Positions 17,863 to 39,422 of a DNA stretch of 49,655 bases are shown here, piece after piece. The DNA lies in the IMG/VR virus record IMGVR_UViG_3300009024_000021, positions 1 through 49,655 of that record, one strand, 5' to 3'. Numbering within the stretch: the first letter of the stretch is position 1; each line of letters opens with the position of its first letter. The DNA is from a virus. Under the pieces are notes generated by a model. That model saw only the letters and a list, made by a program, of their open reading frames with translations. It had not been told where the DNA came from and searched no databases. The translations under genes and the position numbers were made by a program.

Positions 17863-18774
17863 ATGCGTAGAATAACAACAGGTGTACAGGGTGGACCAGT
17901 TTTAGGTACATTTACAGCAAAAGAGAATAACTTGCAAACTATTGAAGACAATGTCGATATGGTGTTTGACCCTAACGGACTCGGTGAAGTTAAATCTGCG
18001 AAACATATTCAACTAAACGCTGAAAAAACTTTAAAATTAGCCGATAGTGCAAGTAGTAATTATGCGGGACTTAAATCGCCTACTACATTAGGTGGCAGTT
18101 ATACATTAACTATGCCAACAGCATTACCATCGCAGAATGGGTATGCGATAACAAGTGATACTTCAGGTAACTTATCATTTGGTGATATTAGTTTTGAAAC
18201 AACAAACCAAACAGGAGATTCGGGCACTTATTACGTTGCCATAATGGATGATGCCGATGCAGGTGATGGTAGTGTTACAGGACTAAACTATAGTGCTGGA
18301 AAATTATCGTTTGTTCCATCAAGTGGTATGTTGTCAACAACAGCAATTACTACAACTGGTAATAGCAGTTTAGGTGGTACTACAACAGTAAGCAGTATTG
18401 ACTGTAATGGTGGCTCTATCGATGGTACAACAATAGGTGGTGCGACTAGAGCTAACGGTAGTTTTAGTACAATGACAGCAACTAGTATTGTAGAGGATTC
18501 AAGTATCACTCTTAAAGAAAATGTTAATCCTATTACTGATGCACTACAAAGTGTATTACAATTATCAGGTGTTACATATGATCGTAAAGACGGAAGTACA
18601 AAACACGAAGCAGGCTTAATTGCTGAAGATGTGTATAACGTACTACCAAATCTAGTTAAACTAGATGATGCTGGTAAACCACTTGGTATTAACTACACCA
18701 AACTTACAGCATACTTAATTGAGTCTGTTAAATCATTAACAAACGAAATTGCTGAATTAAAAAAAAGTAAATAG
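17863..18774 (+). CDS. Tail fibre with C-terminal S74 intramolecular chaperone
   Basis: The product has 303 residues. Residues 1-205 are Gly/Ser/Thr-rich fibre sequence. From about residue 212 the protein matches the peptidase S74 / endosialidase chaperone family: S213-S-I-T-L-K218-E-N-V gives the Ser/Lys pair of the usual S-D-x-R-x-K-x-N-I signature, followed by GLIAEDV and a C-terminal coiled coil (YLIESVKSLTNEIAELKKSK). In this family the chaperone helps trimerise the beta-helical fibre and then cuts itself off at the Ser. The usual Asp after the Ser is Ser here, so cleavage efficiency is uncertain. Ribosome site GGGAG precedes ATG 17863. The gene ends in TAG, in frame with the next gene four codons later. 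Confidence 0.8.
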   Translation: MRRITTGVQGGPVLGTFTAKENNLQTIEDNVDMVFDPNGLGEVKSAKHIQLNAEKTLKLADSASSNYAGLKSPTTLGGSYTLTMPTALPSQNGYAITSDTSGNLSFGDISFETTNQTGDSGTYYVAIMDDADAGDGSVTGLNYSAGKLSFVPSSGMLSTTAITTTGNSSLGGTTTVSSIDCNGGSIDGTTIGGATRANGSFSTMTATSIVEDSSITLKENVNPITDALQSVLQLSGVTYDRKDGSTKHEAGLIAEDVYNVLPNLVKLDDAGKPLGINYTKLTAYLIESVKSLTNEIAELKKSK

Positions 18775-21941: not shown

Positions 21942-22799
21942 ATGACAGACCCCCGTATTGATAGACAGAAACAGTATTTTGGCGATGCGCCAACAATGCC
22001 ATTAGTTACCGACGTTGAACAGTTATCAGATAAAGAAAAAGAAACGTTAAGTGCTGCTTATAATAAGCAATGGTCAAACCCCAAATTTAAAATAAAATGG
22101 TTTGTTGGTCAAACACAAATTACACCATTTGCAAAATTGCGTCAATGGATGTTAGAATTAAGAAGTAGGGAAGAAACTCTACAGCAAGTTTTATATGATA
22201 ATCAAAAGTGGGAAGTTGAAAGAGATCGCAATCAATGGATTGCTGATAACACTGATGATCAATTTGATAAAAGATTAGCACAAATTGAAGCTGATAACGA
22301 AACTAAAAACTTACAGCAATCACATAAAAAATTACGTGAATATTACCTTGAACGTCAAAATCTTATTGATCTTATCAATGAGTTTTTAGAGTCTGACGAA
22401 GCACTTCTTCCGGACGGTTCGGGTAGATCGTATATGGATATTCTAAATACTGAAGAAGAAGATGTTTACGAAGCAGAATATTGGACAAATAGATTAGCAA
22501 AACAAGCATCAACTGACTTAGTATTTTACGGTAGAATTGGTACCGGTAATATGGATGCTATTTTAAGTATGGCCCCAGAGCAACAATCAGAAACATTAGG
22601 TCTTGCTCTTAATTATGCAGCTCAGTTACAACAAGTTCAATCTACTCTTCAACTTGAAGTAGATGAAAAATTAAAAATTGGCGGCCAAGACCCAACTAAA
22701 GATCTTCCTTTACCAGAAGCAGTTCAAAGAGAGCAAATAACAACGCAATCTGCACCAGCTCCAAATGGAAGTGACGATTATGATATATATAATACATGA
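21942..22799 (+). CDS. Unknown helical protein
   Basis: The 285-residue product is highly charged, with long Gln/Glu/Lys-rich helices (about residues 68-150, a probable coiled coil) and no catalytic motif I recognise. It has a good AGGAGA ribosome site and a late promoter 43 bases upstream, so it is probably made late. Its 3' end overlaps the next gene by 20 bases. A virion, scaffold or fibre-assembly role is possible, but nothing in the sequence decides it. Confidence 0.6.
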   Translation: MTDPRIDRQKQYFGDAPTMPLVTDVEQLSDKEKETLSAAYNKQWSNPKFKIKWFVGQTQITPFAKLRQWMLELRSREETLQQVLYDNQKWEVERDRNQWIADNTDDQFDKRLAQIEADNETKNLQQSHKKLREYYLERQNLIDLINEFLESDEALLPDGSGRSYMDILNTEEEDVYEAEYWTNRLAKQASTDLVFYGRIGTGNMDAILSMAPEQQSETLGLALNYAAQLQQVQSTLQLEVDEKLKIGGQDPTKDLPLPEAVQREQITTQSAPAPNGSDDYDIYNT

Positions 22800-23313
22800 A
22801 ACTATAGCAAGTAATGATCCACGTTGGATGAAAGGCATGGAACGTATAGGCGACTTTTGGAACTATACAGTTACAACAGCACCTGATGGAACATATGTTG
22901 ATTGGCTAAATGGTAAAGTTGTTCCGGAAAAGGTAGCGAAGTCATATAAGTTTGTAACAGCAGTTAACGGAGAAATACCAGTTGCAAAACAAACTGATAT
23001 ATACGAGCAGATTGTTCAAGACACTGGCGATACTCATACTGAAGAAGGGCCTAAATTTTATTACGACTTAACTGCTCATGATACAAATAACGGCATAGAA
23101 TTTTTAAAATCAGTTATGATGATACATATAAAAACACACCTTGAAACTAATAATGGTTATATTCCTGCATTAACAAAAATGTTAAACGAAATTACTTCAT
23201 TAGATCAAGGTCAAAGATTAATGTATGATTATTTTGGTTGCAACTTTCCAGGAACAAACTTATCTGCCCGTAAGCCAACATTTAAAGTTGATTGGATAGA
23301 AAATCCAGCTTGA
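22780..23313 (+). CDS. Unknown protein overlapping its upstream neighbour
   Basis: The 177-residue product begins MIYIIHETIASNDPRW. An ATG five codons upstream (22765) is possible but adds only MEVTI; I prefer 22780. Both starts lie inside the 21942 gene, so translation is probably coupled. No recognised domain: mixed alpha/beta with a C-terminal Arg/Lys patch. Its last four bases (23310-23313) are the first four of the -35 box of the sigma70-type promoter for the next operon, so the two units are packed without a gap. Confidence 0.55.
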   Translation: MIYIIHETIASNDPRWMKGMERIGDFWNYTVTTAPDGTYVDWLNGKVVPEKVAKSYKFVTAVNGEIPVAKQTDIYEQIVQDTGDTHTEEGPKFYYDLTAHDTNNGIEFLKSVMMIHIKTHLETNNGYIPALTKMLNEITSLDQGQRLMYDYFGCNFPGTNLSARKPTFKVDWIENPA

Positions 23314-23338
23314 CAAACAGCACATTATCTGCTATACT
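23310..23338 (+). promoter_or_regulatory. Near-consensus sigma70 promoter for the halogenase operon
   Basis: TTGACA (23310-23315), a 17-bp spacer and TATACT (23333-23338) match the bacterial consensus in 11 of 12 bases. The start would be near 23345, 28 bases before ATG 23373. It differs from the late NNTAAATA elements of the structural genes, so this operon should be readable by unmodified host polymerase early in infection. Confidence 0.75.
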
Positions 23339-23372
23339 AAGTATAAAATATAGCTATACTAGTGAGACATAA

Positions 23373-25043
23373 ATGCAGAAAATTTTTAGTGTACCTCTAA
23401 ATCCTAAACTTGCTCCTGAGCAATTTCAAGAGTATTTTGATTTTTTAAAGGACCACAAACACCTTATTTACGATGTATATTTTACATGTAGAATACCGCC
23501 ATTTGCACAAGATGCAATGGGCGATATTTTCATGCATAATGAAGATTATACCTATGCTATTAATACAGCATTGTATATACAACAAGAATTAGATATTCCA
23601 ATTAGTGCTACATTTAATAATACAACAGTGCCGCCAACACAATCTAATTTAGATACTCTTATACGAAACTTTAAACCGTTATATGATGCCGGAGTAAGAA
23701 CAGTTACTATTCCGCATACCCACTGGATGGCAACAGGTCAAATTAAAAAAGCATTTCCAGAACTTCATGTTAAAAATACAATATTACGTGATGTACGTAC
23801 AGCAAGCGAAATAGTAAACCTTGCTAAAGTAGGATTTGATTATATTAATCTTGATAGAGATTTGATGCGTGACAGAGATACATTACTACGCCTTAAAGAT
23901 GCAAAAGTTTGGATTAAAGAAAACTTAGGTAAAGACATCAGATATAGTTTACTTGCTAATGAAGGGTGTTTAGGTAACTGTCCAATGATGGTTGAGCATT
24001 TTGAATTTAACAACACACGTCAAGGCGAAACTCCTCAATACTTTAACGATCCGATAAGCCGTGTTAGTTGCCCAAAGTGGGACGTAATAGATCCTTCAGT
24101 GCATTTAAAAACAGCAGATTTACCACCTTGGAAAGAAGACTGGGAAGAGTTTTTAAATGATCTAGGAATTGATGTTTTTAAAATGCACGGACGTGAAGCA
24201 ATACCAAGACTTTACGAAACAATGGAAATAATTCGTAAGTGGGAAAAAGATGAAGAAATTGTTGCCGCAGGATTTGAAACATATCTCCAAGAAACAAATT
24301 TAAAAGATAAGCCTATTAACATATGGCGTGATAAAATTAAAAATTGTAAGTTTGATTGTTGGGAATGCCAATATTGTGATAAAATTTATAAAGCAAAATC
24401 AGACTTAGATCATAGCGACCTTATTAAACACGTAGCAACGGTCATTGCTGATAGCGGAGTACCTAAAATAAAAGTTGATGTTCCTGGTCTAACTAGTCCA
24501 AGAGTACAAACGATATTAAACGGAATAGCACAAGGTGTTGGAAGTTATTTAGAGATTGGGTCGTACTTAGGTGCTACATTATGTTCTGTTATTAAAGACA
24601 ATCCTATAAATGCTATTGCTATTGATCAATGGCAAGAACAAATACAGCCACAAAAAGATGAAACACTACCACCAAATGATTTCCAAGTATTTAAAGAGAA
24701 TGTTGAACGCTATCAACCCCAGTCGGGTGGTGTAACTGTAGTCAACGCTGATATGATGACAGTTGACACTGCACCTTGGCGTAAACAAATACAGATGTTC
24801 TTTTATGATGGCCCCCATGACGCACAAAGTACATATAATGCTATTGTACATTACTGGAATACATTTGCAGACGAAGTAGTAATAATACTAGATGATGCAA
24901 ATTGGGACGGTGTAGTTGAAGGTTCGAGACAAGCAATTAATGATTGCGAAGGTTTAGTAACATACGAAAAAATATTACTAAACAGTGAAGAAAATCCAAA
25001 TGAATGGTGGAATGGTTTATACATATTGGTTATTAGAACATGA
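23373..25043 (+). CDS. Peptidase-U32-like / class I methyltransferase fusion
   Basis: The protein has 556 residues and two parts. Residues 1-340 look like the U32 'peptidase' fold, whose studied members (UbiU, UbiV, RlhA, TrhP) are mostly Fe-S hydroxylation proteins. Conserved-looking cysteines are C199 and C203 in EGCLGNCP, C233 in SCPKWD, and the cluster C325, C329, C332, C335. Residues about 350-556 are a Methyltransf_24-like SAM domain: motif I YLEIGSYLGATL (about 388-400), acidic AIDQW, and FFYDGPHD. It leads the operon behind a sigma70-type promoter with only a weak ribosome site. ATGA overlap joins it to the next gene. I infer a Fe-S-linked modifying enzyme plus methylation of the same product; the U32 call is the less certain half. 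Confidence 0.55.
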   Translation: MQKIFSVPLNPKLAPEQFQEYFDFLKDHKHLIYDVYFTCRIPPFAQDAMGDIFMHNEDYTYAINTALYIQQELDIPISATFNNTTVPPTQSNLDTLIRNFKPLYDAGVRTVTIPHTHWMATGQIKKAFPELHVKNTILRDVRTASEIVNLAKVGFDYINLDRDLMRDRDTLLRLKDAKVWIKENLGKDIRYSLLANEGCLGNCPMMVEHFEFNNTRQGETPQYFNDPISRVSCPKWDVIDPSVHLKTADLPPWKEDWEEFLNDLGIDVFKMHGREAIPRLYETMEIIRKWEKDEEIVAAGFETYLQETNLKDKPINIWRDKIKNCKFDCWECQYCDKIYKAKSDLDHSDLIKHVATVIADSGVPKIKVDVPGLTSPRVQTILNGIAQGVGSYLEIGSYLGATLCSVIKDNPINAIAIDQWQEQIQPQKDETLPPNDFQVFKENVERYQPQSGGVTVVNADMMTVDTAPWRKQIQMFFYDGPHDAQSTYNAIVHYWNTFADEVVIILDDANWDGVVEGSRQAINDCEGLVTYEKILLNSEENPNEWWNGLYILVIRT

Positions 25044-25627
25044 TACATAATTTTTTTAGTACCCCGATATATATTGATAATGTCTTTGATAATGCGGTTG
25101 AATCAGAACTTTCGCTAGTTATGCCTAAGTTAAAATTTAAAAATGACTGGCAGCCTGATAATGATACAGCACTTACTACGTTTATCCCAGACGAAGAAAT
25201 TAATGTGTTAGAAAATTTTACTCTAGATACAACTAAAGAATTAATCTTTAAACATGTAAACAAGTATCTTAACGATGCACAACAGCCAGTAACAGATGAA
25301 TTGCATATACAGTCTTCCTGGTTAAACACATTTGATAAAGATCAAAACATTGGTCTACATGAACATGGATATCAACCAAACGTAGTTAGTGGTGTATATT
25401 ATCATAAAGCTCATAAAGATAGCGGAATGATTTCTTTTAAAAGTCCTAATCCTTTTGTTATATCCTTTCCGCATAGATGTAATCAGTATAGTAATATTGT
25501 TAAAGTTCCGCCTGAACCAGGAATGATAATACTATTCCCTAGCTGGTTGTTGCATAAAGTAGAACCAAATAGATCTGATAAGGAACGAGTTTCCTTATCA
25601 TTTAATATTGAATTTTCATATAGGTAA
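25040..25627 (+). CDS. 2-oxoglutarate/Fe(II) oxygenase-like protein (first copy)
   Basis: The product has 195 residues. It carries the pattern of the phage 'putative 2OG-Fe(II) oxygenase' family (TIGR02466/PF13759-like): LHEHGYQPNVVSGVYY for the first metal ligands, PGMIILFPSWLLHKV for the distal His, and R-V-S-L-S-F-N for the 2OG-binding Arg. These enzymes hydroxylate or otherwise oxidise a substrate using O2 and 2-oxoglutarate. The start overlaps the previous stop (ATGA), and the stop lies 4 bases before the halogenase ATG. The substrate is unknown. The neighbouring halogenase and second oxygenase suggest successive tailoring of one molecule or protein. Confidence 0.7.
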   Translation: MIHNFFSTPIYIDNVFDNAVESELSLVMPKLKFKNDWQPDNDTALTTFIPDEEINVLENFTLDTTKELIFKHVNKYLNDAQQPVTDELHIQSSWLNTFDKDQNIGLHEHGYQPNVVSGVYYHKAHKDSGMISFKSPNPFVISFPHRCNQYSNIVKVPPEPGMIILFPSWLLHKVEPNRSDKERVSLSFNIEFSYR

Positions 25628-25631
25628 TGTA

Positions 25632-27146
25632 ATGTTTTTAAATAAAGTAAAAAAAATTGTAATATTCGGCGGCGGCACTAGTGGCTGGCTATCAGCTGCA
25701 TATTTAAGAAATCAACTTGGAACACCAGTTGAAATTGTATTAATTGAAGATTCGGACGCTGGTCCAATTGGAGTAGGAGAAGGAACGCAACCGCTAACAG
25801 CAGAGTTCCTATGGAGATGTGGAATACCTCCTCATATGTGGATGAATGCAAGTGATGCATCTTTTAAGTACGGAGTAGAATGTATTGGATGGAATGACGA
25901 ACCGTACTTTGTTGACAACGATACTACAGCAAATAGTGTTATTGCCGAAAACTTTTTCTTTTCAGACTATTTTATAGATAAGCCTTATTCGGAATTAGCA
26001 GACTGGCATCCAGCATACCAACTTGCTAAAAATAATGTATCTTTAAAATATGAGGATTACCTAGATGTTAATCCTGGTATGGGTCCAAGTGGATACGGAT
26101 CTGTACATTTTTCAGCTTATCAAATTATTAAAACTATTAAAGATCTTATTATTGACGATATTACATATATTAATACTAAGATTACTAAAGTAACACAAAA
26201 TGAAAACGGCATCGAATATCTAATTAACGATAATGGAGAAAAGTATACAGGTGATTTGTTTTTAGATTGTACAGGATTTGCTAGTGTACTACTTGAAAAA
26301 GAGTTAGGAGCAAAATGGCAATCATTTAATGATTTAGGATTATTAGCCGATAGAGCTGTAATGATACAAACACAGTATACTAATCCGCAAGAAGAATGCC
26401 ACCCATATACTAAAGCAACAACAATGAATTCAGGATGGTGTTTTACTATTCCTATCTTTACAAGAATAGGAAATGGATATGTATATTCAAGTAAACACAT
26501 TAGTGACGAAGATGCAGAGACAGAATTGAGAAAACATCTAGGCGAATATGTTGCACCGGCTAGACACTTAAAAATGAAATGCGGAGCTCATACACAAATT
26601 GCTTTAAAAAATGTAGTAGGCGTTGGACTTAGTGCAGGATTTGTTGAACCGTTAGAAGCAACAGGAATCACATTTACTACTGCACTAGTACATAGTTTAG
26701 CTGATTTATTAAATGCAAATCAAAATGTTTGGGCCGAGCAAGCTAAACAATTAATGAATCAAGGCTTTGGCGAAATGTCAGCAGAGATATTTACATTTGT
26801 TTGGTCGCATTACTATTTTAGTACAAGAAATGATACAGAATTTTGGAAAGAAATACGCGAACAAAAGATAGAAGATAGGCCACGTTTTGTTAAAGAAATA
26901 CTTGATGCATTTTTACCAAGTCCAAAAAGATTTTTACACTTAACACCTAGTAGTATGTTCTGTGTTACGCAATGGTTTAGTATGCTTCATGCAGGTGGTG
27001 CATACGAAGGAGTAGAATCTAAATTAACAGACAAACAAAAAGAGTATGCTGAGTATTTTTGTAAATCACACACTGCTAGAATTGAGATAGCAAAAGATAT
27101 GTTTGCAAATCATTACGATTACTTAAAAGAATGGTATGGAAGATGA
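25632..27146 (+). CDS. prnA-like: Flavin-dependent tryptophan-halogenase-like enzyme
   Basis: The protein has 504 residues from ATG 25632; an in-frame ATG at 25608 lies inside the previous gene. FAD site G13-G-G-T-S-G-W19; G-V-G-E-G-T-Q-P loop; K79 in SFKYGVE at the position of the PrnA catalytic Lys; and F-V-E-P-L-E342-A-T-G matching the PLExTG block with the catalytic Glu. The halogenase signature WxWxIP is present as W269-C-F-T-I-P274, so its second Trp is replaced by Phe. The family makes hypohalous acid at FADH2 and halogenates Trp or other aromatics, and needs a flavin reductase; none is encoded here. Homologues are known in marine T4-like phages. Halogenation itself is inferred; a flavin hydroxylase or oxidase is the alternative. 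Confidence 0.8.
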   Translation: MFLNKVKKIVIFGGGTSGWLSAAYLRNQLGTPVEIVLIEDSDAGPIGVGEGTQPLTAEFLWRCGIPPHMWMNASDASFKYGVECIGWNDEPYFVDNDTTANSVIAENFFFSDYFIDKPYSELADWHPAYQLAKNNVSLKYEDYLDVNPGMGPSGYGSVHFSAYQIIKTIKDLIIDDITYINTKITKVTQNENGIEYLINDNGEKYTGDLFLDCTGFASVLLEKELGAKWQSFNDLGLLADRAVMIQTQYTNPQEECHPYTKATTMNSGWCFTIPIFTRIGNGYVYSSKHISDEDAETELRKHLGEYVAPARHLKMKCGAHTQIALKNVVGVGLSAGFVEPLEATGITFTTALVHSLADLLNANQNVWAEQAKQLMNQGFGEMSAEIFTFVWSHYYFSTRNDTEFWKEIREQKIEDRPRFVKEILDAFLPSPKRFLHLTPSSMFCVTQWFSMLHAGGAYEGVESKLTDKQKEYAEYFCKSHTARIEIAKDMFANHYDYLKEWYGR

Positions 27147-27724
27147 CACAAATTCTATCAGCCAAGTTTTTTCATAAAGAAGATATAGGTACTGAAGTAC
27201 AAGTATCTAAATTACTTGACGATATTAATAATGTATACGATTCAACACAATCAACATCTGCTACTAATTTAGATTGTTGGAGATCGTCACACGTATATAA
27301 AGATACAGATTGGTTAACTGATGCAATTATAGACCTAGTTAATGAAAATGTAGATTACTATAGTGAGTTAGATTCTATATTTTCAAAGTTAATGACTACA
27401 CATCAACGTAAGTACATATTAACTTATTGGACAAATGTAAACAAACCAGGTAGTAGAAATGTAATGCATAGCCACAAAGATGCAATTTTTTCTGGTGTGT
27501 ACTATGTAAAAGGCGCCGATACTGGAGACTTAAGAATAGTAAATCCAGCAAATGTATTAGGAGATTGTGATGCAATTTCTCCTTTTGTTAGAGACTTTTA
27601 TTTTACGCCCGCTGACAAAGATTTAATAATGTGGCCTAGTTGGTTGCCGCACGAAGTTGAAACAAATAAACATGCAAGTAAAAATAGGATTAACATTGCA
27701 TTTGATATTAGGATAGCAAAATGA
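27143..27724 (+). CDS. 2-oxoglutarate/Fe(II) oxygenase-like protein (second copy)
   Basis: The 193-residue product starts at ATG 27143, overlapping the halogenase TGA; an ATG at 27131 would start inside it. It has the same family pattern as the 25040 product: V-M-H-S-H-K-D (metal ligands), FSGVYYVKG, M-W-P-S-W-L-P-H-E-V (distal His) and N-R-I-N-I-A-F (Arg). The N-terminal 80 residues are unrelated to the first copy, so the two probably act on different positions or substrates. ATGA overlap to the next gene keeps it in the same coupled operon. Confidence 0.7.
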   Translation: MTQILSAKFFHKEDIGTEVQVSKLLDDINNVYDSTQSTSATNLDCWRSSHVYKDTDWLTDAIIDLVNENVDYYSELDSIFSKLMTTHQRKYILTYWTNVNKPGSRNVMHSHKDAIFSGVYYVKGADTGDLRIVNPANVLGDCDAISPFVRDFYFTPADKDLIMWPSWLPHEVETNKHASKNRINIAFDIRIAK

Positions 27725-28458
27725 AAAAGATACAATTCTTCTCAGAAATACCTGGAGTAGCAGAAGCATGTCCAATTATACCAGCAAGTAAATTTATTAC
27801 AAACTGGCAAAAAAGAGCATTAGGTGATTTTAAAAACGCTTCTAAATCAGCAAAAGGAAGAATGGACCATATTGCACAATGCCCTGGAATCTTCGACTTA
27901 AACAGGCACGGCTATATTGTGCCAATGTGGCATGATGTACTGATTGAAACAATGGGCGACGGTAAAGAATTTAAATGGACTGTTCCTACTTCTGATATAC
28001 ACGATTTAGCAAATGGAAAAGAGATCCTTAGTAAGCAAGAAACAGGTGTTGAAACATTAATGCCAGTTAGGCCTTGGAGCATGTCTCCGTTAATTAAATT
28101 TAATACTCCTTGGAATGTAATTGCACCTAAGGGTGTTAAGTTTATAATGATACCAATTGCATATCCAGATAGTTTTGAACTTGATAGTAGTATTGGAATA
28201 TTAGATCCTAGTGTAAGTACTGAGCTTAATGTTCAAGCATATTATAATATTCCTAAAGGCGAATATTTACTTAAAGCAGGAACGCCACTGGCACAGATAA
28301 TACCTTTATCAGAAGAAAAATTTGAATTAGTAGTACGAGACAAAAATAAAAGTGACGACCTTTGGCTTAAAAAGAAAAGATTTATTATGAATTTTACATT
28401 TAAAATTCGACGTAACTTAGTACAAGATATATACAATAAGCATTTTGGAGGAAAATAA
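27721..28458 (+). CDS. Unknown beta-rich protein of the halogenase operon (DUF6065-like)
   Basis: The 245-residue product begins MKKIQFFSEIPGVAEACPII. It has an RPWSMSPLIKFNTPW segment, then hydrophobic beta strands (GVKFIMIPIAYP), and a GTPLAQIIPLS motif near residue 195. This pattern recalls the DUF6065 family found near oxygenase genes, but I recognise it only loosely. No signal peptide or membrane helix is seen. It is joined to both neighbours by stop/start overlaps (ATGA and TAATG). Its conserved place beside the oxygenases suggests a substrate-carrier or partner role, which is inference. Confidence 0.5.
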   Translation: MKKIQFFSEIPGVAEACPIIPASKFITNWQKRALGDFKNASKSAKGRMDHIAQCPGIFDLNRHGYIVPMWHDVLIETMGDGKEFKWTVPTSDIHDLANGKEILSKQETGVETLMPVRPWSMSPLIKFNTPWNVIAPKGVKFIMIPIAYPDSFELDSSIGILDPSVSTELNVQAYYNIPKGEYLLKAGTPLAQIIPLSEEKFELVVRDKNKSDDLWLKKKRFIMNFTFKIRRNLVQDIYNKHFGGK

Positions 28459-28880
28459 TGGCTATTGAAGAATTTCAAACAGATGGCGGTTATGTCATAT
28501 TTACAAATACACCTAAAAAAGTTAAAGATTCGTACACAATGCGAAAATTTCAAAGAGATAGATTACGTCTACAAGGTATGATAACTAAATTGTTAGAAAA
28601 AGAAGATGTTATTATTTTTTATAAAGACGAAGACGAGGTAATACAAAACACTGTTGGAACTAGGAATAGTCACAGACGTGAATTATTAGAAGAACCAGTT
28701 ACTATGGAAGACTACAAAAAAGGTCCTGTAGAAGAAATACATCATGTTAGTTTTCTTAGTATTCCTGGATACGAACCAATGTTATTACATGTTGATTCTA
28801 TTACTAAATTTATTGCATCGTCGACAGATATCTACGAGTTTTTAAACGAAATCGGAAAAGATAAAGAAGAAGTATCATAG
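28458..28880 (+). CDS. Unknown small protein ending the halogenase operon
   Basis: The 140-residue charged product begins MAIEEFQTDGGYVIFTN. There is no recognised domain; it looks alpha/beta with a basic helix (residues 25-50). It starts on the last base of the preceding TAA, with ribosome site GGAGG (28447-28451). It ends in TAG just before the late promoter of the next fibre gene. It is the sixth and last gene of the coupled unit that begins at 23373. Confidence 0.55.
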   Translation: MAIEEFQTDGGYVIFTNTPKKVKDSYTMRKFQRDRLRLQGMITKLLEKEDVIIFYKDEDEVIQNTVGTRNSHRRELLEEPVTMEDYKKGPVEEIHHVSFLSIPGYEPMLLHVDSITKFIASSTDIYEFLNEIGKDKEEVS

Positions 28881-28888
28881 CATACACA

Positions 28889-28896
28889 GATAAATA
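28889..28896 (+). promoter_or_regulatory. T4-type late promoter (GATAAATA) for the 28919 fibre
   Basis: GATAAATA followed by CT lies 23 bases before ATG 28919. The predicted start near 28902 leaves a short leader holding AAAGGAG (28906-28911). It marks the switch back from the enzyme operon to late structural genes. Confidence 0.6.
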
Positions 28897-28918: not shown

Positions 28919-30232
28919 ATGGCATCAAATCAAGCACCAGTTGTCGATAGAATTAGAATAATTCCTAGACCCGACGACTTTCTAGATAGAAACGTTGGAT
29001 CTAGCGGTGAAGTCTTTTTTAACAAAGCAACAAATTCATTAAGAGTGTATAGTGGCGCATTGGCTGGCGGCTACGAACTAGTTACATCAGATCTAGCAAA
29101 TGTTACTGATAGTGCTCTTTTAGCAAAAGCAACTACAGCTGGATTAGCAAAAACTGATCTAACTAATATAACCGACAGCGACTTTTTAACAAAAGCTAAT
29201 CAAGCAGGCATAACTGCTTCAGCAGGTGCAAGCATTGATGTTTCAGAATCTGTTCCTACAACTCCGTCACAAGGTAATATTTGGCTTAATAGTAATACTG
29301 GCGCTCTCTATGTTTACATTACTGATGTAGACGGGTCTCAATGGATACAACCAGTAGTTGGTATTAGCTCAGGCGGTGGTTCCGGTGACAGTAATCAAAA
29401 CGCTTTTTCAAATTTTGCTGTAACAGGCCAAACAACAATAGCCGCAAATACTACAACTGATACAGTAAATCTTGTCGCAGGATCCGGCATGACTATTACT
29501 ACTAGCGGAGATACTATTACGTTTGTATCATCCGGCGGTGGCGGTGGCGGTGGTGGAATTGCTTTAACAGATTTATCTATTGTTACAGGAAGTGCAAATG
29601 CTACTCCATCATTAGCATACAACAATACTACCGGAGTATTTACATATACTCCACCTTCAATAGATAACTTTATTACAGCAGATAGTGCAACAGAGTTTAC
29701 AAATAAAACCGGAAACAATAGTCAATGGACTAATGACTCGAATTATATAACATCATATGCTGAAACAGATACATTAGATAGCGTAACTGATAGGGGAGCA
29801 ACTACTAGTAACAATGTTACAGTTGGAGATATTACAGCAAACGCTTATATTAATGCAGGTACAGGTTCACCAACATTTACTAGTGCTAGTTCAATAACAC
29901 TAACAGCACCAGACGGAGTAATATCAAACGGTGTAAAGGCTCCTATATATGCAGGCTTAGTAGCAGGAACAGGTACACTTACAGTAACTGGCTCAGGCGT
30001 AAGTACTGTTGGTAGTGTTGACAATGGCCTAGGTGATTATACTTTAACTTTTACTAATCCCCTTGGCGTTGATACTGACAGTTTTGGAATACTAGGAAAT
30101 GCACAAGATCAATCAGGAGCTGCAATGGTATCGTTTGTCAAAACAAGTACTACTGTAATTCGAGTATATGTACATGATGCAACCGGCAACAACATCGATG
30201 CTGATGTGTTTATTACAATTTATGAGCTGTAA
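28919..30232 (+). CDS. Tail fibre / baseplate-attached structural protein
   Basis: The 437-residue product opens MASNQAPVVDRIRIIPRPDD, a likely virion-anchoring end. Next comes a G-E-V-F-F-N-K-A-T-N-S-L-R-V-Y block like those at the ends of other fibres here, and two A-x-V-T-D-S-x-L-L-x-K-A repeats. A Gly run of eight residues lies near 29535-29558. The segment N-Q-N-A-F-S-N-F-A-V-T-G-Q-T-T-I-A is nearly identical to one in the fibre at 32254. The end is beta-rich with no catalytic motif. The gene is followed 2 bases later by a subtilisin-like protease. Confidence 0.65.
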   Translation: MASNQAPVVDRIRIIPRPDDFLDRNVGSSGEVFFNKATNSLRVYSGALAGGYELVTSDLANVTDSALLAKATTAGLAKTDLTNITDSDFLTKANQAGITASAGASIDVSESVPTTPSQGNIWLNSNTGALYVYITDVDGSQWIQPVVGISSGGGSGDSNQNAFSNFAVTGQTTIAANTTTDTVNLVAGSGMTITTSGDTITFVSSGGGGGGGGIALTDLSIVTGSANATPSLAYNNTTGVFTYTPPSIDNFITADSATEFTNKTGNNSQWTNDSNYITSYAETDTLDSVTDRGATTSNNVTVGDITANAYINAGTGSPTFTSASSITLTAPDGVISNGVKAPIYAGLVAGTGTLTVTGSGVSTVGSVDNGLGDYTLTFTNPLGVDTDSFGILGNAQDQSGAAMVSFVKTSTTVIRVYVHDATGNNIDADVFITIYEL

Positions 30233-30234
30233 CG

Positions 30235-32232
30235 ATGTCTGAAAGAGAATATGTTGTTGTTGTTAATCGAGGCGAAGACTTAGAAGCATTTGATGCTGAA
30301 CTAGAAGCATCAACGGGCGAAGGCCCAATTCCAAATAGAACAGTAGAAGTTGCTAATCCAAGACCCGGATCTGAGCGTATGACTCACTGGATGTTAACTG
30401 ACGACGAAGCAGAAGAATTAAAAAATGACCCAAGAGTGTTATGTGTAGAAATACCGCCTGACCAAAGAGACGATATTGAGATAGGCTATGCAGCTAGACA
30501 AACAGGCACTTTTTACAGAGGATCAAATTTACAATCAAGTTATATTAATTGGGGTCTTAGAAGATGTACAGCAGTTGATAATTCAACATTTGGTTTCCAA
30601 ACTACGTTAGCAGGAGATTACGATTATGCTATCGACGGCACGGGTGTTGATGTTGTAATACAAGACAGTGGTATACAAGAAGATCACCCAGAATGGCTTA
30701 GTACTAAAGATGAACTCATTGATACTGTACAAGGCGGTGTTGCTACATTTAATTTTATTGCGAGCGCCATAGCAACTAATGACATATACGTACCATATTA
30801 TCAATTTGCAAATCCTACAGCTAATTATATTGCTTCAATGACAGGCACACCTTGGGCAAACGGACAATATGACGGTGCCGAATTTTTAATACGATTTGTT
30901 TTAGCAGACGGCAAGACTATAGAAAGAACTAGAATATTCGGAGGTATAGGAAACGGTACAGTAACTGCAGGAAAAAATACTTTCGAACTTAGTCTAGCAG
31001 GTACAATACATATTGAACAAACTGACGAAGATTTAAGACTTGCTTTTACTACTGGCGGCTATACTCAAAACGGAGTAATACAGTTATGGTTAACAGCCGG
31101 ACAGACTAGAATGCGTCAAATAGATTGGTATGGTGCGAGCGGACTTACTGGTACACAAAATGCAAATCATTATAGAGATGCTGACGGTCATGGAACGCAC
31201 TGTGCAGGGATAGCCACAGGTAAAACATATGGTTGGGCTAAGGGTGCTCATGTTTATTCACAAAAGTTAGCAGGGCTAGAAACATTGTCAGGAACTGACG
31301 GAACAGGAATTGCAATATCAGATGCATTTGATGCTATAAGATTATGGCATAACAATAAACCAATAGACCCAGTTACTGGTGCAAAACGACCAACGGTTGT
31401 TAATATGAGTTGGGGGTACAGTACAGTTATAACTTCTACTCCATCAAGTGGATCTTATAGAGGATCTCCATGGACATGGGGAAGTTCATATACAGATCGA
31501 TATGTACTATGGGCAGATACTGGTGTACCAACAGCAACTGAAGGTGGTGGCTTTAGAATGCCTATCCGTGTAGGATCAATTGACGCTGAAATTGAAGCTA
31601 TGATTGACGCCGGAATTCATGTTTGTATTGCTGCAGGTAATACTCCAATGAAACATGATGTTTCAAATGGATTAGATTATAATAATGTTGTAGTGTTTAA
31701 TGCTGTATCTTACGAGTACCATAGAGGAAGTTCGCCATATAGTGATCGTGCATTAAATGTAGGTAATATCGATAGTAGTGTACAATCTTTTAGTGGAAAT
31801 TTTTATGATAAAACAGCTACAAGCTCTATTAGAGGTCCGGCTGTAAACATATGGGCTCCGGGTAACGGTGTAGTAAGTACAGCAAGTAATATAGGTGATG
31901 CATCATATACTACAATTGATTACCCAGACAATAACAGTTATAAAATCATGAATATCGGAGGCACTTCAATGGCATCTCCCCAAGTAGCAGGACTTGCTGC
32001 ATTAAAAGCACAGTCACTACCAACAAGGAATCCAGACAGGATCCGTGGAGATATTATTAATGATGCAAAAAATGTAGTATATAATACAGGATCAAGTACA
32101 GATTACGATAACTTAAATCAAAGTTTACTGGGTTCTGAACCTAACATAATGTTCTCTAAATATGCTGTTTATAATCCAATGTCATATTCGGGTCCTATAA
32201 CAATTCGTAATGTCGGACCTCGGTTACGATAA
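30235..32232 (+). CDS. Subtilisin-like serine protease (S8 family), probably virion-associated
   Basis: The 665-residue product has the complete S8 catalytic triad: D144 in VVIQDSGIQ, H319 in GHGTHCAG, and S578 in GGTSMASPQVAG; the oxyanion Asn lies in CIAAGNT. Residues 1-80 resemble an I9-type inhibitor prodomain. There is no signal peptide, so it is probably delivered as part of the particle or used inside the cell. The Asp-to-His spacing is about 175 residues where subtilisins have about 30, meaning a beta-rich domain (about 155-310) is inserted. It sits between two fibre genes that share a module, and probably acts in fibre processing or degradation of host surface protein (inference). 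Confidence 0.85.
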   Translation: MSEREYVVVVNRGEDLEAFDAELEASTGEGPIPNRTVEVANPRPGSERMTHWMLTDDEAEELKNDPRVLCVEIPPDQRDDIEIGYAARQTGTFYRGSNLQSSYINWGLRRCTAVDNSTFGFQTTLAGDYDYAIDGTGVDVVIQDSGIQEDHPEWLSTKDELIDTVQGGVATFNFIASAIATNDIYVPYYQFANPTANYIASMTGTPWANGQYDGAEFLIRFVLADGKTIERTRIFGGIGNGTVTAGKNTFELSLAGTIHIEQTDEDLRLAFTTGGYTQNGVIQLWLTAGQTRMRQIDWYGASGLTGTQNANHYRDADGHGTHCAGIATGKTYGWAKGAHVYSQKLAGLETLSGTDGTGIAISDAFDAIRLWHNNKPIDPVTGAKRPTVVNMSWGYSTVITSTPSSGSYRGSPWTWGSSYTDRYVLWADTGVPTATEGGGFRMPIRVGSIDAEIEAMIDAGIHVCIAAGNTPMKHDVSNGLDYNNVVVFNAVSYEYHRGSSPYSDRALNVGNIDSSVQSFSGNFYDKTATSSIRGPAVNIWAPGNGVVSTASNIGDASYTTIDYPDNNSYKIMNIGGTSMASPQVAGLAALKAQSLPTRNPDRIRGDIINDAKNVVYNTGSSTDYDNLNQSLLGSEPNIMFSKYAVYNPMSYSGPITIRNVGPRLR

Positions 32233-34104: not shown

Positions 34105-34468
34105 CTTCTGACTCTATATTTCCTGCTGGAATTACATGATATACATCTTGTGGATTATACTTTGTTGCTGTTTCTGCTATAGCACTTCCGGCATACAAAC
34201 ATTCTAAACTAACTGGCATTAACGGCGGAACATGAAATACTGATCCTTCACGTAAGTTGTTTTCATATAACTTTCCTGTTTGAGTGTCTATCCATCGTAT
34301 TCTAAGTTCACCACTATTAACAAACCAAGACTTAGTAGTGTCCTTAGTAAAGCTCATATTTGTTTTTGAACCAATGTGTTCAAATACTAGAATCTTACTA
34401 CAATAATGTTCTGTGTTTGCCCACAATACTTCATATCCGAATTCTGTTTTAGTTACGTTATCATTCAT
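34097..34468 (-). CDS. Cupin-like protein (mannose-6-phosphate isomerase type fold)
   Basis: The 123-residue product is a single-domain cupin by pattern: KILVFEHIGSKTNMSFTKDT at the start of the barrel, S-G-E-L-R-I-R-W in the middle, and G-S-V-F-H-V-P-P-L-M-P-V-S-L near the end. The usual cupin-1 metal ligands G-x5-H-x-H are largely missing (H-I-G-S-K-T), so catalysis is doubtful and a binding or isomerase-like role is only possible. It lies 8 bases after the Nudix gene and shares overlapping codons with the next gene. The WFVNSGELRIRW segment supports the family call. Confidence 0.6.
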   Translation of the reverse strand: MNDNVTKTEFGYEVLWANTEHYCSKILVFEHIGSKTNMSFTKDTTKSWFVNSGELRIRWIDTQTGKLYENNLREGSVFHVPPLMPVSLECLYAGSAIAETATKYNPQDVYHVIPAGNIESEDE

Positions 34469-34476
34469 ATCAATAC

Positions 34477-34914
34477 CTAATTAATTAAATTAATTACTTC
34501 AAACAATGTTTCAAGTTTGCGTAAATTAACTTTGCTTTCGAGCGTATTTTTTAATCCGAAGTGTAACGGTCTTGGCCATTTGTTAAAACTAACCCAAGCA
34601 TACCCGTCATGCTCTTTGTTAAGTTGTGGAATAAATTCTTTATCAATAATACACAAATATGTGTGAAACAAAAAGTTTGTATCGTTACTTACAAAAGTTT
34701 CAAGCGGAATAGTTTTTTTAATGTTAGGAACATTACCTATTTCTTCTTTAATTTCTCGTTGTAAGCCTTCCCACGGAGTTTCTTTATCTTCTGTTGTGCC
34801 GCCAACTAATCCCCAAACATTATCTCGCTTGGTATTAGCCCTGCGAACAAACAGGAATCGTTTAGTTTCTAGTGTGTAAAAGATTGCACCACTACAGATA
34901 ATTTTTTTGCTCAT
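34477..34914 (-). CDS. Nudix hydrolase
   Basis: The 145-residue product has a Nudix box G-x5-E-x7-R-E-I-K-E-E-I-G at about residues 39-62 (GGTTEDKETPWEGLQREIKE region). It fits the consensus except for Asn in the last hydrophobic position. Nudix enzymes split nucleoside diphosphates linked to another group; T4-like phages use such enzymes on ADP-ribose, dinucleotide polyphosphates, or RNA caps. It sits in the structural - strand unit 14 bases after gp15, which is an unusual place for a nucleotide enzyme. The substrate cannot be told from the sequence. Confidence 0.8.
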   Translation of the reverse strand: MSKKIICSGAIFYTLETKRFLFVRRANTKRDNVWGLVGGTTEDKETPWEGLQREIKEEIGNVPNIKKTIPLETFVSNDTNFLFHTYLCIIDKEFIPQLNKEHDGYAWVSFNKWPRPLHFGLKNTLESKVNLRKLETLFEVINLIN

Positions 34915-38617: not shown

Positions 38618-38818
38618 ATGTGTTCACCAGAAGTACGTAAAGAAGCCAACCGTTTAAATTGGATTATCAAAGGTAAACTAATTGATATATCCTGGAGCGA
38701 CATAGAAGTCGAAAAAACCTACCATTCATATTTTAAAAGACTTTGGGGAAATAATGAAAGTTATATCTACGAAGACGGATTTGAAGAAGAATATCAAAAA
38801 AGACTTGACAAGCACTAA
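38618..38818 (+). CDS. Small unknown protein
   Basis: The 66-residue product (MCSPEVRKEANRLNWIIKGK start) is charged and aromatic, with no recognised domain. It has a strong AAGGAG ribosome site 5 bases before ATG, held in a hairpin in read-through transcripts. The -35 box of the next sigma70-type promoter lies inside its last codons. The dedicated late promoter and well-formed start argue that it is real. Confidence 0.6.
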   Translation: MCSPEVRKEANRLNWIIKGKLIDISWSDIEVEKTYHSYFKRLWGNNESYIYEDGFEEEYQKRLDKH

Positions 38819-38833
38819 TAACGAGTATATACT
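38805..38833 (+). promoter_or_regulatory. Near-consensus sigma70 promoter for the kinase-like gene
   Basis: TTGACA (38805-38810), a 17-bp spacer and TATACT (38828-38833): the same boxes and spacing as the promoter at 23310. The predicted start is near 38840, followed by AAAGGAG (38846-38852) and the GTG start at 38862. Confidence 0.75.
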
Positions 38834-38861: not shown

Positions 38862-39422
38862 GTGTTACCTAAATTACTAGTTGTTGGGCATGGCCGTCAC
38901 GGCAAAGACACTGTTTGCGAAATGTTAGAAGCATACGGTTATACATTTCAATCATCGTCAAAGTTTTGTTCAGAACTTTTTATATTCAACGATCTAAAAG
39001 ATCAGTATGGGTACGCTGACGAAGAGCAATGTTACGCAGATAGACACAATCGTCGTACTGAATGGTATAATATGATACATGACTATTGTAAAGATGACTT
39101 AGCACGTTTAGGCCGTAACTTATTTGCAGATCACGATATCTATTGCGGGTTGCGTAATAAGCGTGAATTCTTTGCAATGCAGAATGAAGAAATATTTGAC
39201 CATGCTATATGGGTAGATAGAACAGATCACTTGCCTTTAGAAAATTATAGTTCTATGAGTATTGAACAATGGATGTGTAATTACACTATTGACAATAACG
39301 GAGATCTACAAAGATTAAAAAAGAACGTAGATGTGTTAATAAGAACAATTTTTAAAAATCGGGGATTAAGTCTCCCTGCTTCCAGCGGGTACCTTCTTTC
39401 TGAATTACACGTTGACAGTTAG
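38862..39422 (+). CDS. P-loop kinase-like protein (dNMP kinase type)
   Basis: The 186-residue product starts at GTG 38862, 9 bases after AAAGGAG. The P-loop V-V-G-H-G-R-H-G-K-D-T (residues 7-17) with K-D-T resembles deoxynucleoside monophosphate kinases such as T4 gp1 and related phage kinases. R/D-rich segments (RHNRRTEWYN, DDLARLGRNLF) could bind nucleotide. Its own sigma70-type promoter suits an early nucleotide-metabolism gene amid late genes. The last 24 codons overlap the convergent HNH gene, so the native 3' end may have been replaced. Adenylate-kinase-like function is the alternative. Confidence 0.6.
   Translation: MLPKLLVVGHGRHGKDTVCEMLEAYGYTFQSSSKFCSELFIFNDLKDQYGYADEEQCYADRHNRRTEWYNMIHDYCKDDLARLGRNLFADHDIYCGLRNKREFFAMQNEEIFDHAIWVDRTDHLPLENYSSMSIEQWMCNYTIDNNGDLQRLKKNVDVLIRTIFKNRGLSLPASSGYLLSELHVDS

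Follow-up and report, generated by a model that had tools for sequence, protein, structure and literature searches.

What is modified by the products of six coupled genes, a halogenase gene among them, that lie between the tail-fibre genes of a marine virus? The window (the whole stretch of DNA analysed, 49,655 bases of IMGVR_UViG_3300009024_000021) belongs to a T4-like phage, and a sequence-only reading had described its positions 23373-28880 as six coupled enzyme genes. The coordinates and junctions were confirmed as claimed, with an ATGA overlap at junctions 1/2, 3/4 and 4/5, a 4-base gap at 2/3 and TAATG at 5/6. The six genes (numbered 1 to 6, referred to as the cassette) and their neighbours are as follows; neighbours are named by their start positions.

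17863-18774: tail-fibre protein, upstream of the cassette
21942..22799, + strand: partner gene A0 (phrog_1409), 5' of the fusion gene in relatives
22765..23313, + strand: partner gene B0, directly 5' of the fusion gene, with an in-frame ATG at 22780
23373..25043, + strand: gene 1, fusion gene, PF13578 in the C-terminal part (phrog_1458)
25040..25627, + strand: gene 2, 2OG-Fe(II) oxygenase A (OXA), PF13759/TIGR02466 (phrog_81)
25632..27146, + strand: gene 3, flavin-dependent halogenase, PF04820
27143..27724, + strand: gene 4, 2OG-Fe(II) oxygenase B (OXB), PF13759 (phrog_81)
27721..28458, + strand: gene 5, predicted dUTPase-fold (beta-clip) protein resembling DUF6065 (phrog_7084)
28458..28880, + strand: gene 6, putative 140-aa conserved protein, co-inherited with the cassette
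28919..30232, + strand: tail-fibre protein directly after the cassette (3' flank), with a late-type promoter
32254: baseplate/fibre connector
39799: tail sheath

Gene 3 is predicted to encode a member of the flavin-dependent tryptophan halogenase family. It matches PF04820 (E 3.4e-87), and GGGTSG (G13/14/15/18), K79, W269..P274 and E342 are fully or nearly invariant in 70 homologues. The W-x-W/F-x-I-P motif reads WCFTIP in the window, its second W being F, and either W or F is found in relatives. In a midpoint-rooted FastTree phylogeny, interpreted for topology alone, the halogenase does not group with the VirX1 orthologue syn9 gp42 and is nearest to bacterial genes adjoining TonB receptors. 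OXA and OXB match PF13759 (E 6.9e-21 and 9.9e-16, both above the Pfam cut-off; the NCBIfam score of OXB, 59.2, is slightly below the cut-off of 62.5), and the His-x-His...His...Arg residues are kept in the two oxygenases (H107/H109/H172/R183 and H109/H111/H170/R182). The proposed flavin halogenase and two 2OG-Fe oxygenases are thus supported by family matches and conserved active sites, and catalytic residues are kept, rather than lost, across homologues. The statement that such genes are known in marine T4-like phages likewise agrees with the cyanophage literature (PMC3037559, PMC10452541, PMC8407142): halogenases and 2OG oxygenases have been described in cyanophages (PMC3037559, PMC10452541), with a halogenase in 20 of 153 genomes (PMC10452541), and the VirX1 halogenase has been described (PMC8407142).

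The product of gene 1 joins a Cys-rich, TIM-barrel-like domain that resembles U32 (residues 1-345) to a class I catechol-O-methyltransferase-like domain (residues 360-556), with a mean pLDDT of 79 for the predicted model. The C-terminal domain is a predicted class I Mg-dependent O-methyltransferase (PF13578/COMT-like); PF13578 matches at E 5e-9, D479, D507 and D508 are at least 90% conserved, and the Foldseek/VIA-align comparison, which covered residues 360-556 only, gave Z values of 15-17 to O-methyltransferases. Residues 1-345 have a predicted beta/alpha alternation, of low confidence in the Cys regions, and 7 invariant Cys, spaced as C199-x3-C203-x29-C233 and then C325/C329/C332/C335 (C-x3-C-x2-C-x2-C). 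Pfam U32 (PF01136) gave no match at E <= 10 for the window protein and none in 25 homologues, and the TrhP-type Cys cluster C-x6-C...C-x3-C is not present. Searches of Pfam, NCBIfam and PDB sequences with the N-domain returned no match, the PDB sequence search found no U32 structure, and UbiU and UbiV gave no alignment when used as templates. With hhalign, about 90 columns of the N-domain fell in register with TrhP (FPELHVKNT...NLDRDLM of the fusion with FPEMPIHLS...ILSRELS) at an E value of 0.003 and a probability of ~11%, against E 0.076-0.73 for seven unrelated E. coli proteins used as controls. By eye, the order 'NEGC..C ... SC ... FKMHGRE' in the fusion resembles 'GALC..C ... C..C ... LKIEGR'. 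Because no model matches and the Cys spacing differs, the fusion was kept out of U32, and its N-domain is best termed U32-like by a resemblance that falls below standard significance. Of the earlier designation 'U32-methyltransferase fusion', the Cys-rich domain fused to a methyltransferase therefore stands and U32 does not, the Pfam and four-Cys tests having failed. A radical SAM assignment, suggested by the lookalike C325-x3-C-x2-C, was rejected, as the motif lies after the predicted barrel and not in the first loop, and no model matched. A genome scan with the N-domain gave two matches only, both on phage-like contigs binned in MAGs.

Genes 5 and 6 had no Pfam match. The model of gene 5 (pLDDT 92) has a predicted dUTPase fold, with Z of about 10 to dUTPases over 111-128 residues, rmsd 2.6-3.3, 11-21% identity and a Foldseek E value of 2e-4. 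PF00692 (dUTPase) does not match gene 5, its best E value being 0.08, in 2 of 28 family members. One of the 28 homologues matches DUF6065 (PF19541; E 5.8e-6) and the window protein does not; a tblastn search with gene 5 reached a plasmid gene labelled DUF6065 (E 5e-4). The description of six coupled enzymes consequently holds for the halogenase, the two 2OG oxygenases and the Cys-rich/methyltransferase fusion, but not for gene 5, which lacks dUTPase motif V, or for gene 6, which could not be recognised as an enzyme.

When viral contigs were scanned, 34 matches were obtained for the halogenase, 14 for gene 5 and 321 for the fusion gene. The best 80 of the 321 fusion loci were used; 63 were left after near-identical fusion genes had been collapsed, and 59 of these had at least 6 kb downstream. 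Downstream of the fusion gene in these 59 loci (from the best 80 of 321), a halogenase and a 2OG oxygenase were each found in 52, gene 5 in 46 and gene 6 in 33, and an orthologue of 21942 was located 5' of the fusion gene in 54; these loci are the closest relatives by search, so that conserved order is over-represented. The usual order among the best 80 of 321 is 21942 - 22765 - fusion - (OXA) - halogenase - OXB - gene 5 - gene 6 - fibre, with variants in which gene 5 is duplicated or additional oxygenases or halogenases are present. Linkage of the cassette is far beyond chance, because the halogenase lies within 6 kb in 52 of the 59 non-redundant relatives (from the best 80 of 321), and the genes are accordingly not scattered. 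An S8 protease gene is often near the cassette, though within 6 kb in just 8 of the 59 loci (from the best 80 of 321). Divergence is correlated among 21942, 22765, fusion, halogenase and gene 5 (rho 0.60-0.80, values raised also by shared phylogeny), less so for OXB and gene 6 (0.40-0.66), and at 0.28-0.46 with the downstream fibre and protease. For the halogenase, rho is 0.66 with the fusion, 0.71 with gene 5 and 0.74 with 22765, against 0.46 with the fibre and 0.31 with the protease; 22765 co-varies with both the halogenase and gene 5 (rho 0.74). A solitary halogenase copy adjoins a DNA polymerase in one locus (L028), so the gene can also move alone.

The cassette has its own predicted control elements:

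23310..23338, + strand: sigma70-type promoter with an extended -10 (TGn), TTGACA-17-TATACT, 11/12 bases matching
23323..23372, + strand: promoter/leader at the position of the hairpin and T-run of relatives (folding energy, covariation)
28890..28896, + strand: late-type motif ATAAATA, 29 bases upstream of the gene that follows, marking the cassette end

The promoter, whose 11/12 match was as first proposed, shares bases of its -35 element with the stop codon of the gene before it and is the top sigma70-type site within 12 kb. Two copies of TTGACA-N15-19-TATAMT are present in the window, where 0.29 would be expected, and the exact TATAMTAAGTA core occurs once. Its proposed difference from the surrounding late promoters was also upheld, as ATAAATA is absent within 65 bases 5' of any of the six cassette genes and present before neighbouring fibre genes. 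Of the eight + strand copies of ATAAATA in the window, 7 stand 12-31 bases upstream of where a gene starts, and the fibre-region genes so preceded include 9140, 28919 and 32254. The canonical T4 late motif TATAAATA was discarded as a candidate (0 in the window against 8.2 expected); the late motif here is ATAAATA-like. Among relatives, 27% of the 66 regions upstream of the fusion gene hold a sigma70 match of at least 10/12 (5% when shuffled) and 15% hold one of at least 11/12 (0% when shuffled), an enrichment not seen before the other cassette genes, and a late-like motif precedes the downstream fibre gene in 93% (42% when shuffled). Of 31 non-redundant occurrences of a TATAMTAAGTA-type core in 2.15 Mb, 21 precede the fusion gene. 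Since a sigma70-type promoter drives the coupled genes, host polymerase can transcribe them, and the enzymes may be made earlier than the late gene products or without dependence on them.

The -10 element is, in many relatives, part of the 5' arm of a hairpin that ends with a T-run (for example AAGGTGCTATACTAAGTATACAGTATAGTGCCTTTTTTT). Hairpin energies are -10 to -17 kcal/mol in many relatives and -6.5 kcal/mol in the window, whose own copy keeps the promoter with a weak hairpin and without a T-run. Across 14 sequences picked because they show the hairpin, 140 of 140 cells pair, and changes on both sides occur in 11 cells (0 of 500 shuffles). With an automatic terminator scan, the hairpin was detected in 9 of the 66 regions upstream of the fusion gene, compared with 0.2% of shuffled sequences and 0-3% of the regions preceding other genes. 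More hairpins before the fusion gene than these 9 were seen by eye. This suggests that the promoter-overlapping hairpin of relatives is a terminator, ending late transcription from upstream next to a new promoter. Late read-through from upstream would be stopped, and a transcript from the cassette promoter would start inside the hairpin and so escape. The proposed promoter-hairpin terminator element is new here; no description of it, of the six-gene unit or of the U32-like fusion reading was found in the open-licence literature.

Cultured phages carry parts of the cassette separately. In 50,697 phage records, 21942 and the fusion have 123 matches each with an identical organism-name breakdown (77/38/8), and 78 records match the halogenase. 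Orthologues of 21942 and the fusion are adjacent in P-SSM4 as T4-GC 353/354, and in loci that lack the halogenase the fusion gene is still surrounded by fibre genes. The segments of syn9, S-RIM44, P-TIM40 and S-CREM1 that were examined gave no match to 21942; in them, gene 5 and 2OG/JmjC-type genes come after a halogenase, next to fibre genes. Among the matches listed, halogenase and fusion records overlap only in S-RIM14, S-ShM2 and S-SSM2, in which the halogenase-like match is a remote one (22%) that lies close to transaldolase. The group to which the window belongs thus unites a 21942-fusion module and a halogenase-gene 5-oxygenase module in one transcription unit.

In cells, halogenase relatives were examined at 7 bacterial plasmid loci. 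Six of these have a neighbouring TonB-receptor gene (divergent in one, separated by a DUF6445 gene in another), and the Sulfitobacter relative does not adjoin a surface-protein gene. DUF6065 genes lie about 10 bases after an autotransporter in two Sinorhizobium plasmids; a further Sinorhizobium copy lies elsewhere, not adjoining a surface-protein gene. In a single Chloroflexota genome a DUF6065 gene is inside a lasso-like cluster (AsnB-type cyclase, ABC transporter). As an association in a small sample, this cellular context favours surface proteins or peptides as the substrate; the tail fibres in phages, taken with the bacterial TonB receptors and autotransporter, lean towards a surface protein.

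The enzyme classes and their linkage are well established; the substrate, the order of the reactions and the benefit are what we infer. A viral or host protein is probably what the cassette modifies. More narrowly, and with somewhat less than an even chance of being right, we propose a co-inherited set of tailoring enzymes in the tail-fibre region that modifies side chains of a tail or surface protein or of 21942/22765. The target would be amino-acid side chains in the tail-fibre system, most likely those of the 21942/22765 products or a fibre. The fusion would oxidise and O-methylate a residue, the two 2OG oxygenases would hydroxylate, the halogenase would halogenate (or oxidise) an aromatic residue, and gene 5 could be a substrate-binding or scaffold part. 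The benefit may be changed adhesion or stability of the virion surface. MibH acts on a Trp of a peptide. Modification of a protein is favoured because of the co-inheritance and order, correlated divergence, kept catalytic residues, and promoter with hairpin; because fibre genes flank the cassette and the 21942 and fusion counts match in phage records; and because bacterial relatives adjoin TonB receptors or an autotransporter or, in one Chloroflexota, belong to the lasso-like cluster, and the group of VirX1 includes MibH (PMC8269204). Against it, an enzyme directed purely at the virion would not need an early-type promoter, 21942/22765 co-vary more closely with the cassette than the fibre genes, and the late genes of T4-like phages host many insertions, which makes position alone weak. 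The one Sinorhizobium DUF6065 gene and the Sulfitobacter halogenase relative that lack a surface-protein neighbour also count against it, as do the sub-significant U32 resemblance and the preference of close-relative searches for conserved order. A stricter version, in which oxidised, O-methylated and halogenated side chains are all installed on a tail or adhesion protein and 21942 is the obligate partner or substrate of a new Fe-S-like oxidase/methyltransferase fusion, is unlikely to be right in full; we know of no earlier case in which a virion protein is halogenated by an enzyme, so that it would, if true, be the first.

A host metabolite (pigment, quinone or signal) might instead be halogenated, hydroxylated and methylated during infection by an auxiliary metabolic pathway. 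Every enzyme class here has small-molecule members, VirX1 iodinates many small aromatics (PMC8407142), the promoter is early-type, and cyanophage halogenases are read in this way in the literature (PMC10452541). However, family searches found no scaffold-building or carrier enzyme, as expected in a natural-product cluster, among the six genes, which likewise lack a transporter and a flavin reductase, and neither the recurring place among fibre genes nor the constant linkage to 21942 fits; we regard a small-molecule product as improbable, with perhaps one chance in five.

RNA as the substrate is a slightly weaker candidate, also improbable. The fusion would then combine a TrhP-like (U32) uridine hydroxylase with a TrmR-like O-methyltransferase and produce 5-methoxyuridine, or a similar base, in tRNA or rRNA, the other genes riding along or acting on the same RNA. 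The hhalign result with TrhP is better than those of its controls, the methyltransferase domain has TrmR (5zw3, Z 16.1) as one of its good matches, and an early promoter fits. There is also a precedent in B. subtilis, where trhP1/trhP2 and trmR, encoding a catechol-OMT-like enzyme, are in one operon for 5-methoxyuridine (PMC6599085). Yet many unrelated small-molecule O-methyltransferases score equally well (Z 15-17), the U32 model, Cys spacing and UbiU/UbiV comparisons all failed, and the halogenase and oxygenases are left unexplained.

It is more doubtful still, at about one chance in ten, that a small gene-encoded peptide is tailored in the manner of a RiPP and then matured by the neighbouring S8 protease. 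The DUF6065 gene in the lasso-like cluster, the grouping of peptide-acting MibH with VirX1 and the frequent proximity of the protease gene speak for such a peptide, but no precursor-like gene is present, gene 6 has 140 aa and no conserved aromatic- or Cys-rich core in its alignment, and the protease is only loosely associated (rho 0.31; within 6 kb in 8 of 59 loci from the best 80 of 321). T4-like phages modify their own DNA, and the fold of gene 5 could point to handling of a base or nucleotide; nucleotide or DNA modification is nonetheless very improbable, as the C-terminal Gly-rich motif V of dUTPases is not visible in the gene-5 family alignment and PF00692 reaches only E 0.08. Least credible is a draw-down of 2-oxoglutarate that steers host nitrogen signalling, proposed for cyanophage 2OG enzymes (PMC3037559), which explains neither the halogenase, nor the fusion, nor the fixed co-inheritance.

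The halogenases and 2OG oxygenases of marine T4-like phages have had no assigned natural substrate, VirX1 having been characterised on non-natural compounds. The cassette places a halogenase in a co-inherited, separately regulated unit, singles out 21942, 22765 and gene 5 as its partners, and supplies a co-expression set with which the substrate can be tested directly. It also gives a first functional lead for the fusion protein in 123 cultured cyanophage records, where it is annotated as hypothetical only.

Four known systems invite comparison. The B. subtilis trhP1/trhP2-trmR genes are alike in that a U32-type barrel co-occurs with a catechol-OMT-like methyltransferase (PMC6599085), whereas the version in the window is fused, remote in sequence, different in Cys spacing and accompanied by a halogenase and oxygenases. 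The nearest cellular relatives are proteobacterial TonB-linked genes of the tryptophan halogenase family, which share 27-32% identity and keep the catalytic Lys and Glu; their loci, unlike the cassette, are sugar-uptake-like, lie on a chromosome or plasmid, and have neither the fusion gene nor gene 5 annotated alongside. The T4-GC 353/354 pair (P-SSM4, S-RIM2, S-CAM4 and others) consists of neighbouring orthologues of 21942 and the fusion that lie among fibre genes, as in the window, but is labelled hypothetical, and the P-SSM4 segment has no adjoining halogenase. Finally, the VirX1 locus (Syn10/syn9, S-RIM44, P-TIM40, S-CREM1) differs in that the segments examined lack a match to 21942, the fusion gene or gene 6 and hold far more oxygenases, and its halogenase type belongs to another clade with 28-33% identity to that of the window; like the cassette, it combines one or more halogenases with the gene-5 family, 2OG/JmjC-type oxygenases and fibre neighbours.

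The gene at 21942-22799, which lies upstream of the cassette and matches phrog_1409, probably forms an obligate pair in cyanomyoviruses with the fusion gene (23373-25043; a U32-resembling Cys-rich domain and a catechol-O-methyltransferase-like domain). Each of the two proteins matched 123 phage records with an identical organism breakdown, and cyanomyovirus annotation describes both as hypothetical only. The fusion gene is also found on phage-like contigs (L137, L138) that have been binned into an archaeal MAG and a Dehalococcoidia MAG. In P-SSM4, homology to the fusion protein begins ~130 bases 5' of the annotated start of PSSM4_035 (L131 6460-6591 = P-SSM4 34459-34590), and this start has probably been miscalled or the frame disturbed.

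Features of the window and of other viral and cellular loci (L)
Window 30235-32232: subtilase-like protein (S8, phrog_3677 protease), among fibre genes
Window 38805-38833: TTGACA-N15-19-TATAMT promoter, the only other such promoter in the window
L104 13197-14378 and L024 5517-6713: short additional halogenase paralogue, FFEPISATS at the catalytic Glu region
L034 4032-10809: distant halogenase of another virus, flanked by glycosyltransferase-like, radical-SAM-like and methyltransferase-like genes
L134 11291-16781: S-CREM1 row of many annotated 2OG oxygenase genes and one JmjC gene, after the halogenase and gene 5
L158 8216-9019: Chloroflexota DUF6065 gene, within a lasso-peptide-like cluster
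L161 5439-8720: Sinorhizobium DUF6065 gene, autotransporter gene immediately before
L164-L168, L170: halogenase-family genes of proteobacterial plasmids, TonB receptors adjacent

The S8 protease gene lies next to the cassette again in many relatives. The short paralogue of L104 and L024 has lost the catalytic Glu and is probably not a halogenase. Among cellular genomes, the Chloroflexota cluster around DUF6065, the family that gene 5 resembles, comprises an AsnB-type cyclase, an HPr-kinase-like protein, an ABC transporter and a small ORF.

The promoter at 38805-38833 precedes a small + strand ORF at 38922, with structural genes around it. When both strands of the whole window were searched for TATAAATA, the T4 form of the late motif, 0 copies were found versus 8.2 expected, and this form appears to be avoided. 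ATAAATA is present at several gene starts; the window's late motif is unlike that of T4.
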